Below are positions 3,970 to 24,285 of a stretch of 30,357 bases of DNA, in pieces. A program made the translations under genes and the position numbers. Below the pieces are notes generated by a model, which did not search any database, was not told the origin of the DNA, and saw nothing but the letters and a program-made list of their open reading frames with translations. Source of the stretch: a virus; the IMG/VR virus record IMGVR_UViG_3300001533_000214, positions 1 through 30,357 of that record; one strand, 5' to 3'. The number at the start of each line of letters is the position of its first letter. Position 1 is the first letter of the stretch.

Positions 3970-4572
3970 ATGGAAAAAAGAAGTATAAATTACGAGTTTA
4001 GGGCAATGCCAGAATCTCGCACGATTATAGGAACGGCAACCGTTTTTAATTCTGCCTATGACATGGGATGGTATGATGAAGAAATGAGTGCAGACGTATT
4101 TAAAAATTCTGATTTTTCGGACGTGGTGGCATTATTTAATCATGATGCAAACATGGTTTTAGCGCGAACTAAATCAGGTACTTTAAAATTAAATCTTACT
4201 GGTAATGCCTTAGAATATTCTTTTGAATCACCAAACACTACTTTAGGTAATGACCTTTTGGAAATGGTTAAACGTGGCGATGTTTATCAATCTTCATTTG
4301 CATTTAGTGTAGAAGCCGAGGACTGGCAGGAAAGGGAAGGAATGAAACCTAAAAGATTAATTCGAGGTATCAAAAAAGTGTATGATGTTTCACCGGTAAC
4401 TTATCCCGCAAATCCTGATACTATGGTTGCTAAAAGAAGCTACGATGAAAAGAAAGGTTCTATTGATGAAGAATTACAGAAAGTAATTGATATATCTGTT
4501 AAGTCAGAAATTAATATTCAAAACGAGTTACGCAGGAACGCCCTGCATTTATTAAATTTAAAAACAAAATAA
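3970..4572 (+). CDS. Prohead maturation protease (S78, HK97 gp4-like)
   Basis: Serine protease that cleaves the scaffold-like delta domain from the capsid protein during prohead maturation. The 200-residue length is right. The catalytic His is H58 in L-F-N-H-D and the Ser lies in Q-S-S-F-A-F near residues 107-112, both in their usual context. The G-T-A-T-V-F-N element near the N-terminus is also typical. The region after residue 150 is variable and charged. It sits between portal and capsid genes, and its stop overlaps the capsid ATG (TAATG). Confidence 0.92.
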   Translation: MEKRSINYEFRAMPESRTIIGTATVFNSAYDMGWYDEEMSADVFKNSDFSDVVALFNHDANMVLARTKSGTLKLNLTGNALEYSFESPNTTLGNDLLEMVKRGDVYQSSFAFSVEAEDWQEREGMKPKRLIRGIKKVYDVSPVTYPANPDTMVAKRSYDEKKGSIDEELQKVIDISVKSEINIQNELRRNALHLLNLKTK

Positions 4573-5816: not shown

Positions 5817-5840
5817 GGGATGGGTAGCAATATCCATCCC
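5817..5840 (+). promoter_or_regulatory. Hairpin between capsid and connector genes
   Basis: GGGATGG at 5817-5823 pairs perfectly with CCATCCC at 5834-5840 around a 10-base loop. The right arm ends 18 bases before the connector start at 5859. No T-run follows, so it is not a standard intrinsic terminator; partial termination, RNA processing or translation control are possible. It also explains why the upstream ATG at 5820 is an unlikely start. Confidence 0.5.
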
Positions 5841-5858
5841 TACTTTAAAAAATGTACA

Positions 5859-6419
5859 ATGGCTTGGAAAGTAACTACGCAACCTGCAACCGAAATCTTC
5901 ACCTTACAAGAAGTAAAGGATTATCTAAAAGTTGACGATTCAACCGAAGATACCCTTATTACTACTTTGTTGCAAAGTGCCAGACAAGCAGCTGAAAGGT
6001 ATTTAAATCAAGCCCTTATTACACAAACTATAACAGAAAAATTAGATTATCTAAGATTAAGCACTATTTATTTATCTGTATCTCCTGTTATTTCGGTTAC
6101 CTCTTTTCAATACGCGGATAGCCAAAACACTACACAAACATTTAGCGCAAATAATTACATAGTAGATAATTTTGAAAAGCCTGCAAGGCTATCTTTAGCC
6201 TACGGAAAAACATGGCCTACATTATACGGTAATATAAATGATGTTACAATAACTTACACGGCTGGTTATGGTTCAGAACCTAGTTCTGTTCCTGCTCAAA
6301 TAAAACAAGCCATTTTATTAATGCTTACTGATGCGTATGATAATAGACAGGATTATGTCAAAAAATTACCTACAGCATCTGAATATTTATTAGACCAATA
6401 TCGAGTACAAATTTTATAA
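5859..6419 (+). CDS. Head-tail connector, gp6-like
   Basis: Forms the first ring under the portal and continues the DNA channel. The N-terminal region has the pattern of the phage gp6-like connector family: F-T-L-Q-E-V-K-D-Y-L-K-V-D near residues 14-26, then an acidic turn and a helix with S-A-R-Q-A-A-E-R-Y. The C-terminal part is beta-rich with an I-T-Y-T-A-G-Y-G element and a final helix. I chose the ATG at 5859 over the one at 5820, because the family starts close to this point and 5820 lies in a hairpin. The stop overlaps the next start as TAATG. Confidence 0.82.
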   Translation: MAWKVTTQPATEIFTLQEVKDYLKVDDSTEDTLITTLLQSARQAAERYLNQALITQTITEKLDYLRLSTIYLSVSPVISVTSFQYADSQNTTQTFSANNYIVDNFEKPARLSLAYGKTWPTLYGNINDVTITYTAGYGSEPSSVPAQIKQAILLMLTDAYDNRQDYVKKLPTASEYLLDQYRVQIL

Positions 6420-8476
6420 TGAAGTACAACAAAAACGAAGTTACTGGTAAAATGAGGGATCGGATTATCCTTCAGAACGTTACGCGAGTAAGGTCGTTGA
6501 GTGGTTTTGCTTCCGAAAGTTGGGCTGATATTGCTACCATTTGGGCATTTGCAGAAAGCAAGTTACCAGGTTCAAATGAGACTATTATAGATGGTAAAAA
6601 CACGGCTAAAAATGTATGCGATTTTATCATTCGTTATATATCCACAATTACCGAAGAATCTCGCGTAGTTTGGGGAGACAAATTATATCAAGTAAAAAAT
6701 TTAAAGGTTAGTCACGATAGGCGTTTTATTTCATTTACGGGAGTGTTTTACGATTCATACATCCTTACGGGTGTTAACGTCGCAGCTTCGGTAAATGGTA
6801 TCGCCACAACGTCGGCAAATCTTAAATTAATAATGTCTGTCATTGGGCAGGCAAATGCTATTGCATCATCTTTTGCCGACCTTACAGTTTTCCAACAAGG
6901 CGCGGTTGACGTTGCGGCTTCGGTTAATGCTTTAGGTAATGTTACGGCAAATCTTACAAAAGTTATAAATATTAATAGTTCAGTTGATGCTAATGCAAAT
7001 GTTAGCGCACCAATTACTATTTCAAAAAATATACAATCCAGTATTGATGCTACAGCAACAACTACGGGAGGTGTTCAACTCGTTAAATTACTTTCTGCCT
7101 CTGTCAATGCTAACGCTACGGCAACAAGTATTTTGGATGTTGTAACACAAGGTATTGTATTGGTAGATGCTTCGGTAAACGCAACGGGTGAAACTACGGC
7201 AAACCTAACAAGAATAGTAACATTAGAAAGTAGTTCTACAACCGCAGCTGAAACAAGCGCAACGGCTATTCTTACTAAAGTTTTAGAAGCAAGTGCAACG
7301 GCTTCGGCGCAAACTAATGCAGCCGCTCAAATTACGATACCTGTTAACGCTTCGGCAACTACAACTGCTGAAACATCTGCAACGGCTCAATTAAGCTACA
7401 CAGTCAATGCCTCTGCTGATGCTACGGCTTTAACAAGTGCCGATGCTCAAATAGTAAGAATTATTTCTGCAAGTGCTACGGCAATGGCTGAAAGTTCTGC
7501 TGAGGCTTCATTTGGTGTTACGTTTATAGCGAATGTTACAGGCACTGCAACTGTCACGAATGCAACCATAGCAAGAACGGCAACTTTAGCGGCAAGTGTA
7601 AGCGGAGCGGCAACGGTGACTGGTGCGACATTGACAAGTGAATCCGCTGGAGTAACGGTTGATTACCTTGTAGTTGCTGGTGGAGGCGGAGGTGGTAATG
7701 GTACTCTTATAGGTAATGGTGGCGGTGGTGCTGGAGGGTATCGTTGTTCTGTATCTGGCGAATTATCTGGTGGAGGTAATAGTTCTGAAACTTCTATAAA
7801 TATTTCTAAAAATATAAATTACACAGTAACTGTCGGTAATGGTGGTAGTGCAGGTACAATTGGTATTAATTCTGTATTTTCAATAATAACATCAAATGGT
7901 GGCGGTTATGGTGGTTATAGAGGTCCAGATACCAATCCATCATCAGGTGGTTCAGGTGGTGGCACACAAGCAATTGAAGGAATTTCAGGAGGTAGTGGGA
8001 CAACTAATCAAGGATTTGTTGGTGGCACTGGTTCTCAAGGGGAAAATTTTCCTTTAACATATCAAGCTGGTGGTGGTGGTGGTGCAAGTGAAGCAGGAAA
8101 TACAAATGCGCAAAGTAGTGGTGGTGATGGAATAGCTTCATCAATAACTGGTAATTCAATTCCAAGAGCTGGTGGTGGTGGTGGTATGCGTGGAACTAAT
8201 TATGGAAATGCTTCTGGTGGTTCAGGTGGTGGAGGAACTGCTAACCAGCCAGGATCATCAAATACTGGAGGTGGTGGTGGAGGAGGTAAATCGGGTGGTT
8301 CAGGTGTGGTTATAATTTCATACCTTAACACATTCCCAGATTTACTTACAATACATAGTTCCCATGTTTGTAATGGTCAAGCAGCTGGAGGAACAACAGC
8401 TCCAGCACCATCAACAACAAGAAGTGGTTATAAAACATATACATTTACGGCTGGTGATGGAAATATTTCGTGGTAA
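6419..8476 (+). CDS. Head-closure adaptor fused to repeat stalk and glycine-rich adhesin domain
   Basis: One uninterrupted 685-residue frame with three parts. Residues about 1-115 look like a head-tail adaptor of the SPP1 gp16 type, with M-R-D-R-I-I-L-Q, W-A-D-I-A-T-I-W-A and a beta-rich end; such proteins are normally about 110 residues. Residues about 118-410 are Ala/Thr/Ser/Asn repeats of roughly 20-23 residues built on A-S-V-N-A-x-A and T-A-N-L-T. Residues about 414-634 are a Gly-rich domain that begins V-D-Y-L-V-V-A-G-G-G and ends G-G-S-G-V-V-I-I-S-Y, well known from phage tail-tip adhesins. The closing segment Y-K-T-Y-T-F-T-A-G-D-G is also typical of those. It follows the connector gene, where head-closure proteins belong. 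ATG 6452 is a second possible start. I infer a neck-attached fibre; the domain join is seen, the role is not proven. Confidence 0.72.
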   Translation: MKYNKNEVTGKMRDRIILQNVTRVRSLSGFASESWADIATIWAFAESKLPGSNETIIDGKNTAKNVCDFIIRYISTITEESRVVWGDKLYQVKNLKVSHDRRFISFTGVFYDSYILTGVNVAASVNGIATTSANLKLIMSVIGQANAIASSFADLTVFQQGAVDVAASVNALGNVTANLTKVININSSVDANANVSAPITISKNIQSSIDATATTTGGVQLVKLLSASVNANATATSILDVVTQGIVLVDASVNATGETTANLTRIVTLESSSTTAAETSATAILTKVLEASATASAQTNAAAQITIPVNASATTTAETSATAQLSYTVNASADATALTSADAQIVRIISASATAMAESSAEASFGVTFIANVTGTATVTNATIARTATLAASVSGAATVTGATLTSESAGVTVDYLVVAGGGGGGNGTLIGNGGGGAGGYRCSVSGELSGGGNSSETSINISKNINYTVTVGNGGSAGTIGINSVFSIITSNGGGYGGYRGPDTNPSSGGSGGGTQAIEGISGGSGTTNQGFVGGTGSQGENFPLTYQAGGGGGASEAGNTNAQSSGGDGIASSITGNSIPRAGGGGGMRGTNYGNASGGSGGGGTANQPGSSNTGGGGGGGKSGGSGVVIISYLNTFPDLLTIHSSHVCNGQAAGGTTAPAPSTTRSGYKTYTFTAGDGNISW

Positions 8477-8486
8477 AAAAATAATT

Positions 8487-8879
8487 ATGGCATATTACGC
8501 AGTTTTAGATGAAAATAATTTTGTAATTAATATGAAAAGTGCTGGTCATGAAGATGATTGGGATGGTGAAATTGGTTGGTTTAATGAATTAGGTATTGTT
8601 CATAAACGAACATCATACAACACGCGTGGCGGCATCCATTACCAAGCCGACAACAATACACCAAGCCAAGACCAAAGCAAGGCATTCCGAAAAAACTATG
8701 CTGGAATAGGTTACTATTACGATAGCATTAGGGATGCTTTTATACCTCCAAAACCTTTTCCCTCATGGACATTAAACGAAGATACTTGCCTTTGGCAATC
8801 ACCAATACCTTATCCAAATGATGGCAAAATGTATCAATGGAATAAGGAAACAGGCAACTGGGAAGAAATAAATTTTTAA
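8487..8879 (+). CDS. Conserved phage structural or fibre-associated protein
   Basis: The 130-residue product starts with M-A-Y-Y-A-V-L-D-E-N-N and contains R-K-N-Y-A-G-I-G-Y-Y-Y-D near residues 71-82, P-P-K-P-F-P-S-W-T-L near 91-100 and a Trp-rich end (Y-Q-W-N-K). Proteins with these elements are frequent in phage structural regions, especially of marine myoviruses, but their exact role is not known to me. I chose ATG 8487; the longer frame from 8364 overlaps the adhesin gene by 113 bases and its added residues look like a frame shadow. It sits between two adhesin-type genes, which suggests a receptor-binding or fibre-capping role. Confidence 0.7.
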   Translation: MAYYAVLDENNFVINMKSAGHEDDWDGEIGWFNELGIVHKRTSYNTRGGIHYQADNNTPSQDQSKAFRKNYAGIGYYYDSIRDAFIPPKPFPSWTLNEDTCLWQSPIPYPNDGKMYQWNKETGNWEEINF

Positions 8880-8888
8880 CGTTAAAAA
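8873..8888 (+). repeat. Perfect 16-bp palindrome at a gene end
   Basis: TTTTTAACGTTAAAAA is its own reverse complement. It includes the stop codon of the gene before it (8877-8879) and ends nine bases before the next ATG at 8898. It could be a weak hairpin, a protein-binding site or chance. Confidence 0.45.
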
Positions 8889-8897
8889 CATTATAAA

Positions 8898-9290
8898 ATG
8901 GGAGCTTTTGGAAATTTTTTAGAAGACAAAATAACTGGATGGATAAATGGAACAGACATGGGTACTGCTCCAACAAATACCTACGTTCAGTTATTTAATG
9001 GCAATCCTACTGACACAGGCACAGGCGGCACTGCATTGCTTTCGCGTGTTCCAGTTGCAGCTGGTGGATGGACAAGGGGAACAGGTGGCGCAGGTACATT
9101 AACTAATACTGCGGCTATTACTATAACTCCATCTTCTGGTTCTGCTGTTACAGCTGATTACTTTGCTGTATTTGATGGTGCAACTGGAACAAACGTTTTA
9201 TTTCACGGTCTTTTAAGTGCAAGTAAATCAATCGCTGTAGGTGATGAAGTAAAATTCAACGCATCTCAGCTTACTTTGACTGTAGCCTAA
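8898..9290 (+). CDS. Gp80-like tail fibre or decoration protein (probable)
   Basis: The 130-residue product opens with G-A-F-G-N-F-L-E-D-K-I-T-G-W and continues T-N-T-Y-V-Q-L-F-N-G-N-P-T-D near residues 26-39. This is the layout of a phage family, annotated as tail fibre Gp80-like, that starts xxNYLExxLLxH and then has TxYVxLFxxxPT. The rest is Gly/Thr/Ala-rich and beta-strand-like, with D-Y-F-A-V-F-D-G-A-T-G-T near 92-103. It is likely a small virion surface protein. It closes the three-gene insertion in the neck region (6419-9290). The following gap holds a 9-bp hairpin. Confidence 0.65.
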   Translation: MGAFGNFLEDKITGWINGTDMGTAPTNTYVQLFNGNPTDTGTGGTALLSRVPVAAGGWTRGTGGAGTLTNTAAITITPSSGSAVTADYFAVFDGATGTNVLFHGLLSASKSIAVGDEVKFNASQLTLTVA

Positions 9291-9294
9291 AAAT

Positions 9295-9320
9295 TAGGAG
9301 AATGCTTAGGTATTCTCCTA
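9295..9320 (+). promoter_or_regulatory. Hairpin upstream of the gp10-like gene
   Basis: TAGGAGAAT at 9295-9303 and ATTCTCCTA at 9312-9320 form a perfect 9-bp stem with an 8-base loop. It lies 13 bases before ATG 9334 and only a few bases after the preceding stop. No T-run follows. The spacing matches the hairpins before 5859 and 19175. Confidence 0.5.
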
Positions 9321-9333
9321 TAAATAATTTACA

Positions 9334-9951
9334 ATGGGATATTTATCAGCTAAACAAATAAATCACCTTAAAGAACTTCAAAAATCCAACTACGCAGGTA
9401 GAAGGAGTTTTCAAGGTATAAGCCTAAGAGTGGTAGGTTTGGCAGATGCAGTAATTGAATTTGCTGAATTAATGGAACAATGTACAGTAAAAGAAAGAAG
9501 CAGGGTAATTGATTCGGCTACTCCTATAGCATTACAGGTGTATAAGTCATTAGTACCAGTAAGCAGTAAGTCGCACCGTATTAGTACCAATCCTTTCGGC
9601 AATAAAAAAATGCAAGGATGGGCAGAAAGTGATGGCGCTTCTATGATTGTACAACCGGGTAATTTAAGAAAGTCTATTATTGATTTATCTAAAAATCTTA
9701 AATCGTACCGTTATGCAGTCGGAGCAATCGGACCATTGTATAAAAGAAATACAATGAATAAAGGTATTAATAGCAGCGAAGGAACTAATGGATTTTACGC
9801 GCACATGGTTTTTGGAAGTACTAGAGCATGGTATAACAAAATAGTGATACAAGCAAGAAATTTGAGTAGGGAAAAAGTAATTAAAACGATGCGTAATGAA
9901 TGTATTTTCATTATGCAGGAAAGACCTAAAAAATTCTGGCAAATATCATGA
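9334..9951 (+). CDS. HK97 gp10-like tail-completion protein (probable)
   Basis: In siphophages the gene before the tail terminator encodes a gp10-like neck/tail joining protein. This 205-residue product fits by place and by pattern: a G-L-A-D-A-V-I-E-F opening helix near residues 35-43, A-L-Q-V-Y-K-S-L-V-P-V near 68-78, a G-N-L-R-K-S-I near 109-115, and F-Y-A-H-M-V-F-G-S near 151-159, which corresponds to the family's Y-A-x-x-x-E-x-G element. The end overlaps the next start as ATGA. The match is by motif only and the sequence is divergent. Confidence 0.68.
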   Translation: MGYLSAKQINHLKELQKSNYAGRRSFQGISLRVVGLADAVIEFAELMEQCTVKERSRVIDSATPIALQVYKSLVPVSSKSHRISTNPFGNKKMQGWAESDGASMIVQPGNLRKSIIDLSKNLKSYRYAVGAIGPLYKRNTMNKGINSSEGTNGFYAHMVFGSTRAWYNKIVIQARNLSREKVIKTMRNECIFIMQERPKKFWQIS

Positions 9952-10337
9952 TAGGCAAATTAATATACAGCAGGTTATCAACCGACGGGGCAATATTAGC
10001 ATACGTTGGAAGTAAAATCTATCCTGATATTGTTCCTCAAAATGTACAATATCCTTTTGTTGTTTACACTATCACAAATAGCATTCCTGTAGATTATAAA
10101 GACGGACAAAGTAACTTAGAGGAGATTTCACTACAAATAGATGTTTACACCCAAAACTATGACGATACACAGGATTTAGCCAACCTTATTAGAAATAGGT
10201 TGGATAGATTTGTTGGTACTGTCGAAGGCGTGGAAGTTCAAAGTATAAAATATACTGCGTCTGATTCACAAGTTTATAACGCTGAATTATCGGTATATTG
10301 GATGAGTGTTGATTTTTTAGCAAAAATGAAAAGATGA
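9948..10337 (+). CDS. Tail terminator / completion protein, DUF3168 family
   Basis: Caps the tail tube and joins it to the neck. The 129-residue length and elements match DUF3168 (PF11367): a short N-terminal helix with A-I-L-A-Y-V-G-S-K-I-Y-P near residues 15-26, then Q-Y-P-F-V-V-Y-T near 35-42, the strand L-Q-I-D-V-Y-T-Q near 62-69, a helix A-N-L-I-R-N-R-L-D near 77-85 and a final S-V-D-F-L. It overlaps both neighbours by four bases (ATGA), so it should be made in step with them. Confidence 0.82.
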   Translation: MIGKLIYSRLSTDGAILAYVGSKIYPDIVPQNVQYPFVVYTITNSIPVDYKDGQSNLEEISLQIDVYTQNYDDTQDLANLIRNRLDRFVGTVEGVEVQSIKYTASDSQVYNAELSVYWMSVDFLAKMKR

Positions 10338-15944: not shown

Positions 15945-16309
15945 TGCCATACACGGAAAAAACAGTATTATTTAGGGGATTAGATTTTGATTCGGGAAGA
16001 ACGCCAAATCATTCGGCTGGAGGCGTAGCAGGAACAGGCTCAATAACACCTACAAATAGTCAGCCAAACACGCAAAATAGTAGCGTTACAAAAGTGTTTA
16101 AGCAATCTTTTTTAGATAGCTACACAGCTATTTTAACTGTTACAAAAAACGCAGGCGTATTGCCTTCAAATCTTGAACAACTTTTAATTTTTCAAAACGG
16201 TCAAGAATTATTAAGTAGCCAATTTACCGTTACTGGGTCAGTAATAACAATAGATTCATCTACTCATTACGATGGCTCTAATTATGTCATATTTTTCATA
16301 ATTGTATAA
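15944..16309 (+). CDS. Small tail-tip protein, hypothetical
   Basis: A 121-residue protein of unknown function. The middle is rich in Gly, Ser, Thr and Asn (about residues 20-50), and the C-terminal 70 residues look like a compact beta domain: T-A-I-L-T-V-T-K-N-A-G near 62-72, L-L-I-F-Q-N-G-Q-E-L near 81-90, then alternating hydrophobic strands to the end. This F-x-N-G-x-x-L pattern is common in phage adhesin-associated domains. Both ends overlap neighbours as TAATG, between the tail-tip gene and the fibre gene, so it is probably a structural part of the tip. Confidence 0.6.
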   Translation: MPYTEKTVLFRGLDFDSGRTPNHSAGGVAGTGSITPTNSQPNTQNSSVTKVFKQSFLDSYTAILTVTKNAGVLPSNLEQLLIFQNGQELLSSQFTVTGSVITIDSSTHYDGSNYVIFFIIV

Positions 16310-18384
16310 TGGAAGAAATCAAAGCACCAAAAAAAGAAAGAAGGTTTTTAAAAGCCGTGGGCGAAGTAGCCTTAACATTATTTCGCGAGCTTCTTCTTGG
16401 AGTCGGGAAAAAGATCATTAACAAAGTAGGTAATAAACGACAAGGTCTTGTTATTGGCATTGTTGTTTTAGCATCATCTTTTGCTTGTGCCCAGTATCCA
16501 GCAACAGGCAATAAGCAAAGATTAGGTTTCCAGACTACGGGCGACGGGCTGGTTTATCGGGGTAGGGCATTGGACACAATGACTATTAAGTCAAGTGGTT
16601 TAAATAATGCTTATCACATATTCGATACTATTAACAATGTCTTATTTAGCTATATAAAGACTAAAGGAGGATGGAAATTTAATAATAGTGATACAGTAAT
16701 AGTAAATAATACGACTGATACAACCTCATTAAGTAGTCGTATAGATTTAAGATTACGATACGCAGACACATCTTACATGCTTACTAATTACTATCGTTCT
16801 GGCAAAGCATTGGGCACTCCGTTAAGTGGTGTTTTAACTAATACAACAGGACTTCCTTTATCAACAGGAGTTACAGGAATTTTACCTTTAATAAATGGCG
16901 GTACAGGGTCGAGTACGGCAAATGGAGCAAGAACAAATTTAGGCGGAACAAGTATTGGGCAATATTTATTCACGCTATCTAATTCAGCGACTAATAAATA
17001 TGTAAGATTTAATTCTGATAATACGGCAACTTTATTGACGAGTAGCGAAGTGCGTACAGATATTGGCGCAGGAACAGGAAATGGCACTGTTACAAGCGTA
17101 AGTCTATCTTTGCCAAATACAAATAGTATTTTTGCTTTAAGCGGCTCACCAATAACAACAAGCGGAACATTAGCTTTAACTTATTCGGGTACTGCATTAC
17201 CCATTTTAAACGGTGGTACAGGTGCTACATCTGCCTCGGCTGCAAGGTCTAATTTAGGCGCAACCGTGCGAGGCGCAAATACATTTTTATTAGCTGATTT
17301 AGGTGCTATATCTTTTTTACGTTACAATGCTGATAATACGGTGAGCCAAAGAGCAGCTGATGGAATGCGTACAGATTTGGGAGGTACAACTATTGGACAA
17401 TCAATGTTTATATTAACCAACCCTTCTGCCATCACATTCCCAAGATTTAACGCTAATAATACGGTAACTGCTTTAGATGCTGCAAGTTTTAGAACTGCCA
17501 TTGGTGCAGGAACGGGAAATGGAAACGGAACGGTAACAAGCGTTACAGGTTCTTTACCTATTTCATCAAGTGGAGGCATTACGCCAAATATAACCATTGC
17601 TAATGCTTCAACTACTGCATCTGGTGTAGTTACTACATCTACGCAAAGTATGGCAGGTAATAAAACGTTTACGGGCGATTTGACAACAAGTGGGGCTTTT
17701 AGTGCAACAGGATTTAGTACATTAATAGGAGGCGCAAGTATAACAAATTTAGCATCAACATCAAGTTTAACAAAAGTTGCTGGAATGAATAGTAGCAATG
17801 CTTTTGGTGAATTAACTTTAGCGGGTGGTTTATCAGTTGCAAGCGGTGTATTAAGCATTCAAGCCGCAACTGCTTCGCAAACAGGAACTGTAATATCTTT
17901 TGGCTCTCAAACATTTGGAGGCAATAAAACATTTAACGGAACAGTTACTTTGGCATCTGCAACTGGCATTGCCACAAGTGTTATTGGTAGAAGTAGCACA
18001 GGGCAGGTAGTAGATATTCCTTTAAGTGGGTTAACATTAAATAGCGGCACTTTAACGACAACGGCTAATAGCAATGTTAATATATACCTTGCTATTAACG
18101 GCCCTGGAATTACTTTATCTTCAAGTTTTGGTGTTTATTCACATTGGTATGTAAATATTAATCAAAATTCAACTGTTACTATTACTTTACCATCAGCAAG
18201 CGGAAATACTAACAAAACACTTGTAATAAAAAATTCTGGAACTGGCGCTGTTAATTCAAATACAACTAATGTAGAGCCATTAAATAGCACGACATTAGGT
18301 ACTGCTATTATGACGTCTGGAGGAGGTAAATATGCTACACTTGTAAGTAATGGGACTAATTGGATTAAAATGACTGGAAACTAA
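16309..18384 (+). CDS. Tail fibre protein with N-terminal membrane or signal segment
   Basis: The 691-residue product is a repeat-built fibre. From about residue 165 it has G-V-L-T-N-T-T-G-L-P-L and G-I-L-P-L-I-N-G-G-T-G, classic tail-fibre repeats. After these come at least three copies of a unit with R-T-N-L-G-G-T, F-x-L, then R-F-N-x-D-N-T (about 200-250, 307-350, 353-395). Later it has T-F-T-G-D-L-T-T-S-G and similar beta-helix-like units. The first 45 residues are basic and amphipathic and are followed by a hydrophobic run (about 45-60) ending A-C-A-Q-Y-P, which looks like a signal peptide with an A-x-A site. Such a segment is odd for a virion fibre. It may be a tip-docking element or a domain fusion. 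Confidence 0.8.
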   Translation: MEEIKAPKKERRFLKAVGEVALTLFRELLLGVGKKIINKVGNKRQGLVIGIVVLASSFACAQYPATGNKQRLGFQTTGDGLVYRGRALDTMTIKSSGLNNAYHIFDTINNVLFSYIKTKGGWKFNNSDTVIVNNTTDTTSLSSRIDLRLRYADTSYMLTNYYRSGKALGTPLSGVLTNTTGLPLSTGVTGILPLINGGTGSSTANGARTNLGGTSIGQYLFTLSNSATNKYVRFNSDNTATLLTSSEVRTDIGAGTGNGTVTSVSLSLPNTNSIFALSGSPITTSGTLALTYSGTALPILNGGTGATSASAARSNLGATVRGANTFLLADLGAISFLRYNADNTVSQRAADGMRTDLGGTTIGQSMFILTNPSAITFPRFNANNTVTALDAASFRTAIGAGTGNGNGTVTSVTGSLPISSSGGITPNITIANASTTASGVVTTSTQSMAGNKTFTGDLTTSGAFSATGFSTLIGGASITNLASTSSLTKVAGMNSSNAFGELTLAGGLSVASGVLSIQAATASQTGTVISFGSQTFGGNKTFNGTVTLASATGIATSVIGRSSTGQVVDIPLSGLTLNSGTLTTTANSNVNIYLAINGPGITLSSSFGVYSHWYVNINQNSTVTITLPSASGNTNKTLVIKNSGTGAVNSNTTNVEPLNSTTLGTAIMTSGGGKYATLVSNGTNWIKMTGN

Positions 18385-23733: not shown

Positions 23734-23861
23734 CAGTACCATTTTTTTAAAGTGTCAACAATAAAGTAAATAGCATAAGCAAGAGTTAAGATACCTCCAG
23801 CGGCCACAATGATGAGGGCGATGTCTTTACTTAATTTTTGTTTTTGGTTTTGCGTTAGCAT
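23733..23861 (-). CDS. Small single-span membrane protein
   Basis: From ATG 23861 the protein has 42 residues: a short charged lead (Q-N-Q-K-Q-K-L-S-K-D), one hydrophobic span at about residues 13-34 (I-A-L-I-I-V-A-A-G-G-I-L) and a basic tail ending K-K-W-Y. The start overlaps the end of the repeat protein by 35 bases, and the stop overlaps the next start. A frame to 23915 exists, but its added residues read from the other gene's repeat region and are unlikely. Confidence 0.55.
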   Translation of the reverse strand: MLTQNQKQKLSKDIALIIVAAGGILTLAYAIYFIVDTLKKWY

Positions 23862-24285
23862 GATTTTTTTGTTTTTGTTTTTTCCGATATTCGGCTTGAT
23901 AAGCCTTGATTTCATCTTTATATTTTTCTCGATATTCGGCTCTTTTGGCTAATAATCTTTCTCTATTTTCTTGATAATAAGAAGTGCCCTCTACATTATT
24001 TTCTCTTTGCTTTTTCCGATATTCAGCCTGATAGGCTTTAATTTCGTCTGGGTTGTTTTTACGATACTCCGCTTTTTGAGCCAATAATTTTTCCCTATTC
24101 TTTTGATAGTAAAGTTTAGCCTTTATACTTTTTTCTTTAAGCTGCTCTGGTGTGAGGTTTGAGTTTCTTTGTTTATTGTACTCTTTTAATTTAAGTCGTT
24201 TTTTTTCTCTTTGGAAACGGCTCAAATTGTTTTTAAGCTTTATCCGGTAAGCGGTTCTTTTGGCTTTTATTTCTTCCTCCGTCAT
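23827..24285 (-). CDS. Charged two-repeat helical protein
   Basis: The 152-residue product is almost wholly Lys, Arg, Glu, Gln, Tyr and Ala. It has two 44-residue repeats, about residues 59-102 and 103-146, each with Y-Y-Q-x-N-R-E, then A-E-Y-R, then D-E-I-K-A-Y-Q-A-E-Y-R-K-K-Q. The first 58 residues look like a third, decayed copy plus a lead. The net charge is strongly positive, so DNA or RNA binding by a long helix is plausible. Similar E-Y-R/Y-Q-K-N-R-E repeat proteins are known in phages and large DNA viruses, without a certain function. Confidence 0.7.
   Translation of the reverse strand: MTEEEIKAKRTAYRIKLKNNLSRFQREKKRLKLKEYNKQRNSNLTPEQLKEKSIKAKLYYQKNREKLLAQKAEYRKNNPDEIKAYQAEYRKKQRENNVEGTSYYQENRERLLAKRAEYREKYKDEIKAYQAEYRKKQKQKNHANAKPKTKIK
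23848..24111 (-). repeat. Two tandem 132-bp coding repeats
   Basis: The repeats 23980-24111 and 23848-23979 encode the two 44-residue units of the charged helical protein. They share blocks such as the code for D-E-I-K-A-Y-Q-A-E-Y-R. They have diverged enough to be older than the 60-bp repeat in this window. Copy number could vary between relatives. Confidence 0.7.

Follow-up and report, generated by a model that had tools for sequence, protein, structure and literature searches.

A head-closure protein extended by a repeat stalk and an exchangeable tip, a predicted neck fibre of a siphovirus-type phage

Appendages at the phage neck are known from the lactococcal phages TP901-1, Tuc2009 and phiLC3, in which the neck passage structure (NPS) is an elongated neck protein of about 700 amino acids (aa) with variable carbohydrate-binding modules that has been read as an ancillary, reversible adsorption device (PMC9692632), and for which domain exchange is known (PMC10684548). 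Extra domains are also described on neck ring proteins: the adaptor gp83 of podophage DEV has a lectin-type insertion of 101 aa (PMC10925440) and the adaptor of roseophage R4C an N-terminal Ig-like domain (PMC10276861). The stoppers of JBD30 and R4C are hexamers (PMC11445458, PMC10276861). The protein gp80 of Ralstonia phage GP4 was described in a 2026 paper as a fibril that joins an adhesin to the tail nozzle collar (PMC13243795), and the fibre chaperone gp25 of phage Pam3 has a variable N-terminal half and a conserved C-terminal half (PMC9608196).

Here we analysed a stretch of viral DNA of 30,357 nucleotides (IMG/VR record IMGVR_UViG_3300001533_000214, positions 1 to 30,357; hereafter the window) with the gene order terminase, portal, protease, capsid, connector, fused gene, three genes, tail terminator/completion, small genes and tape measure. 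A preliminary description had placed the fused gene between the connector and the tail-completion genes. The connector side of this claim stood, since the gp6-like head-tail connector/adaptor (Ad1; 5820-6419, + strand; PF05135, phrog_442/phrog_40) is located directly upstream of the fused gene, but on the other side three genes (8487-8879, 8898-9290 and 9334-9951) precede the gp17-like tail completion/terminator gene (9948-10337, + strand; PF11367, E=7.8e-16).

A head-closure protein that continues into a stalk and a tip

The open reading frame (ORF) at 6419-8476 (+ strand) runs from an ATG at 6419 to a stop at 8476 through 685 codons with no internal stop or frame break, and the analysis confirmed that its product is a head-closure (Hc1/stopper) protein continuing into a stalk and a Gly-rich tip; the formation of a ring by this protein is predicted. 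In agreement with the preliminary description, no stop or frame break was found between residues 115 and 130, either in the window or in its relatives. Among 59 distinct complete genes of this long type, obtained from many metagenomes, 58 were open over their full length (478-743 aa).

Residues 1-114 (6419-6760) matched PF05521 (Phage_HCP) at residues 10-105 (Pfam; E=1.9e-14, 54.6 bits against a curated cut-off of 25) and head closure Hc1 (phrog_25) at residues 9-104 (PHROGs; E=3.5e-14), and in a profile search this adaptor part matched 2kz4 (E=1.4e-12). For residues 1-120 an AF2 model was made with the long and short alleles described below as aligned input, and its mean pLDDT was 74. When this model was searched with Foldseek, nine PDB matches were obtained at E<=0.001 with prob 1.0, nearly all of them neck/connector structures, including the GTA stopper 6tba (E=1.1e-5), SPP1 gp16 (7z4w; 4.3e-5) and 2kz4 (4.8e-5), with further stopper-type matches to XM1, Milano and Pam3. 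The head-closure fold that had been proposed for residues 1-115 was thereby supported by a structural comparison. The fused gene, directly after the connector, contains the sole Hc1 of the genome, and exactly one Hc1 per record was found in 11/11 related records searched. Given a single Hc1 per genome, the fused protein would have to supply the stopper ring.

The stalk comprises residues 115-411 (6761-7651), of which 50% are Ala, Ser or Thr, and its length differs among relatives. A period of 20 residues was evident from the self-identity of 30% at lag 20, compared with 18.6% at the 99th percentile of the best lag in shuffled sequence. The exchangeable tip follows at residues 412-685 (7652-8476) and consists of a Gly-rich adhesin-type domain and a C-terminal strand segment; the match to PF21722 (Gly_rich_2) covers residues 404-635 (Pfam; E=1.1e-13, 52.1 bits against a curated cut-off of 24.3). 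Both the Ala/Thr/Ser repeats after the adaptor and the Gly-rich domain at the C-terminal end were therefore recovered as first described. In a model of the full-length protein most ten-residue blocks of residues 411-640 had a pLDDT of 58-90, and values were 24-30 across most of the stalk; the low confidence for adaptor and stalk in this model is due to the shallow alignment. A fold search with the full-length model gave no match at E<=0.001, and for the Gly-rich tip the best PDB match, to a chain from the tail tip of mycobacteriophage Bxb1, had an E-value of 0.08.

A programmed frameshift at the junction, by which short and long forms could be made from one gene, was considered and rejected, as an in-frame slippery heptamer was present in 0/70 long loci.

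Some further features were noted in the window and its relatives. In the window (3970-4572) the prohead protease has about 200 aa, and in several relatives (L047 6884-7813, L088 and L097) it has about 310 aa, with an N-terminal extension (MPYSNYPQSATN...). A putative tail fibre at 16309-18384 starts with a basic stretch and a hydrophobic segment (GLVIGIVVLASSFACAQ) that resembles a signal or membrane anchor, which is unusual for a fibre; the record of L033 shows 77% identity to this protein in the N-terminal part. An ORF on the - strand (23827-24285) contains 1.9 copies of a 132-bp tandem repeat (23863-24112), corresponding to a duplicated unit of 44 residues.

Neck alleles, tips and accessory genes

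The comparison set consisted of about 100 IMG/VR relatives. A scan with the first 115 residues gave 43 IMG/VR loci, in which all complete genes were long except that of L041, and a scan with the window portal gave phages with portals 83-98% identical that were of two kinds at the Hc1 locus, long or short. The short allele is an unfused Hc1 of 114 aa that is about 38-40% identical to the long-allele adaptor and ends at a tyrosine where the long-allele extension starts; in these phages only Hc1 and one neck gene separate the connector from the tail completion gene. The neck gene (9334-9951, + strand, in the window) is present in both configurations as two allele types, with a weak Neck1/tail-completion-like match in the allele type other than that of the window. 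Adaptors with and without the extension, a comparison proposed in the preliminary description, were thus both present at the same locus in sister phages.

The two portals nearest to that of the window (98% and 96%) belong to short-allele phages. Between the window and the short-allele phage L046 the DNA was 89% identical and collinear up to 6459 and was collinear again from 10017, inside the tail completion/terminator gene, and no shared sequence was detectable at 6460-10016. The connector of short-allele sisters falls to 75-84% identity, diverging together with the swap. On the portal tree, which leaves out L041, at least 12 allele changes were counted (12-14 in bootstrap trees, at least 5 of them forced by well-supported branches), and the neck block has therefore been exchanged repeatedly. 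A tail-tip fibre was present in long- and short-allele phages alike.

In L041 (5980-6468 and downstream) a long-allele Hc1 was observed with a stalk broken by in-frame stops and with the tip lost; the gp80 homologue of this phage is intact and its connector is very different (41% identity). Loss of the arm, as in this case, is apparently compatible with retention of the Hc1 domain.

Outside this set, no close phage DNA was found among 50,697 phage records, and a tblastn search with the whole protein gave only Hc1-domain matches with 13-14% coverage, that is, no cultured relative of the fusion at that sensitivity. No provirus and no host link emerged when 84,980 prokaryote species genomes were scanned twice.

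Compared with its closest siblings, the window protein has an adaptor that is 97-99% identical, a stalk that is 72-90% identical and a tip that is 39-49% identical; by these alignments the tip is the fastest-changing part of the fused protein. Where the tip begins, at about 7683-7696, the window ceases to be homologous to L005 and L055 at the DNA level. Four classes of tip were distinguished: Gly_rich_2, Laminin_G_3 (a ConA-like lectin; E=1.8e-21), ArabFuran-catal, and one unnamed class. The arabinofuranosidase B catalytic profile of the third class covered 75 residues of the L020 tip (E=9e-8). The adaptor tree required 13 changes of tip class, where the minimum possible is 3, and L161 and L169 had identical adaptor DNA with different tips. 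Two of the alternative tips have homologues in virion/tail proteins of Gordonia phages and cyanophages. In this pattern the tip behaves as receptor-binding modules do and is a putative binding domain. As judged from the breakpoints and trees, exchange by recombination is at two levels, that of the whole block, giving a fibre-bearing or a fibreless neck, and that of the tip alone.

Two of the genes downstream of the fused gene follow the allele or the tip class. The gene at 8898-9290 (+ strand) encodes a homologue of the GP4 fibre I protein gp80, with matches to PF23140 (Pfam; E=1.2e-23, 84.3 bits against a cut-off of 27) and to chain a of PDB 8jou (E=1.7e-8). Counted over distinct loci that could be read through to the neck gene, the homologue was present in 47/47 long and 0/25 short loci, counts that are not independent because the loci share ancestry; given the repeated allele switching on the tree, the association with the long allele nevertheless reflects more than one inherited event.

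The phrog_7759 gene (8487-8879, + strand; PHROGs; 130 aa) is an accessory of the Gly-rich tip and was found after 33 of the 36 Gly-rich tips and after 0 of the 11 other tips. Similarly, an 82-aa gene followed all six arabinofuranosidase-like tips (6/6) and was limited to those tips. The N-terminal half of the phrog_7759 protein is variable and its C-terminal half conserved; for the window protein there was no PDB match at E<=1, no sequence match to gp25 and no Pfam match. By analogy with Pam3 gp25, we infer that phrog_7759 proteins are candidates for a chaperone, or a cap, serving the Gly-rich tips of aquatic phages.

In 10/10 records of other phages that were checked, a phrog_7759 homologue (125-130 aa) was located directly after a Gly-rich gene, the end of which contained 31-39% glycine; these records are from Pelagibacter, Roseobacter, Methylophilales and uncultured phages (L119, L121, L122, L192, L193 and L195-L199). 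Many relatives (e.g. L018 8086-9054) have a glycosyltransferase-type gene (phrog_7162) that separates the gp80 homologue from the fused gene; this gene occurs with all four tip classes and is absent from the window.

The neck-fibre reading and its alternatives

We consider it probable that the fused gene encodes a neck fibre built into the DNA-gate (stopper) ring, which would serve as an ancillary adsorption device of a siphovirus-type phage. Residues 1-114 would form a ring below the connector, and the repeat stalk (residues 115-411) would hold the C-terminal tip at a distance from the neck. The tip would bind a surface structure, most likely glycans of the host envelope, and this contact would be a first, ancillary and probably reversible adsorption step besides that of the tail-tip fibre. 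The GP4 gp80-like fibril protein, two genes downstream, would belong to the same neck-fibre assembly, and the phrog_7759 protein may help to fold or cap the Gly-rich tip. We infer the exposure of the arms at the neck, the binding of a receptor and the roles of these two proteins.

The built-in neck fibre of the preliminary description is favoured by the swapping of tips and by the co-inheritance with a GP4-type fibre gene. That the fibre is a matter of one gene holds in part: ring and arm are indeed fused in a single gene, but the module is larger than this gene. The symmetry counts against the neck-fibre reading, as six or twelve ring arms would have to be combined with trimeric tips. If the stopper is hexameric, two trimeric fibres might arise from its six arms, a prediction based on the trimeric state of the Gly-rich fibre in Pam3.

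The same arms might serve mainly to attach the phage to glycans in the environment (mucus, particles or extracellular polymer) or to other surfaces, and not to select host cells. Several tips are of lectin-type or Gly-rich folds, as would be expected for such a function, and close relatives have no arms at all; because closely related phages lack them, the arms are not needed for infection as such. However, the rate of change of the tip and the switching of its class resemble host-range selection, and homologous tips occur in tail/virion structural proteins of other phages, so that we regard this explanation as unlikely, though as the strongest of the competing ones.

A less likely explanation still, to which we give little credence, is that no exposed fibre exists and that the extension is removed once the protein has been made, or is folded back as a collar stabilising the DNA gate. 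Six or twelve long arms would crowd one ring, and L041 keeps its Hc1 domain with the stalk broken by stops and the tip lost. The maintenance of full-length frames in 58/59 genes argues against this explanation, and the diversity of the tips and the accessory genes that track them are hard to reconcile with a piece that is discarded or purely structural.

Fibres of other phages have varied N-terminal anchors, and the Hc1 domain could accordingly be a mere anchor of a side fibre bound elsewhere, with another protein closing the head. This is very improbable given that there is one Hc1 per genome, located between the connector and tail completion genes, and that a plain Hc1 takes its place in sister phages. 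That the fusion is an assembly chimera or annotation artefact is refuted by its recurrence in dozens of separate metagenome contigs.

If the neck-fibre reading is correct, the covalent link between arms and DNA gate could allow opening of the stopper ring to be signalled directly by binding at the neck. One polypeptide would then be both the sensor of the host and the lock on the genome, an extension of the reading that we regard as speculative and improbable.

Comparison with described neck devices

The stoppers matched here (SPP1 gp16, the GTA stopper and PF05521/phrog_25 proteins) share with residues 1-114 the family, the predicted fold, the gene position and the single copy. These stoppers are about 100-130 aa, whereas the fused protein adds 360-630 aa of stalk and adhesin tip. 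The preliminary description knew of no described protein of this build but allowed for unpublished related fusions. In a limited search of the literature, which does not show absence, no published example of a stopper joined to a stalk and an adhesin came up; comparable devices have been published (lactococcal NPS, DEV and R4C).

In GP4, gp80 is reported to link an adhesin to the tail nozzle collar, and the window has a homologue at 8898-9290. Unlike GP4, this is a phage with tape-measure and tail-terminator genes, in which the gp80 homologue is always close downstream of the fused stopper. The tail fibre gp24 and chaperone gp25 of Pam3 resemble the present arrangement in that a Gly-rich tip is followed by a small gene with the same half-variable pattern; the Pam3 fibre is located on the baseplate (PMC9608196), and no similarity was detected between phrog_7759 and Pam3 gp25. 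DEV gp83 and the R4C adaptor are, as here, neck ring proteins with an extra peripheral domain. In both, however, the ring protein is the adaptor and not the stopper, and the available parts of the sources report one compact domain and no long stalk or exchangeable tip.

The lactococcal NPS and the fused stopper are alike in their size class and in having a strain-variable distal domain of binding type on a conserved base, and the fused stopper would resemble the NPS in serving as an ancillary adsorption device. The NPS is encoded after the RBP gene as a protein of its own, which starts with a BppU-like domain and is attached to the collar, whereas in the fused stopper the arm is covalently part of the stopper and stalk and tips are different. 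The N-terminus of the fused protein gave no BppU match (Pfam) and matched PF05521 instead; with a stopper in place of the BppU-like domain at this end, the protein falls outside the NPS family.

The sister phages with near-identical heads, with or without arms, represent a natural control, and because armed and armless sisters exist, the contribution of a neck fibre to adsorption can be tested by comparing them. An Hc1 protein of more than 400 aa together with a gp80 homologue could serve as a genomic marker for neck fibres in uncultured phages. In the neck appendage closest in its way of working, the lactococcal NPS, the arm is a separate protein attached to the collar; in the present case the base of the fibre would be part of the DNA gate itself, namely an essential protein of its ring.
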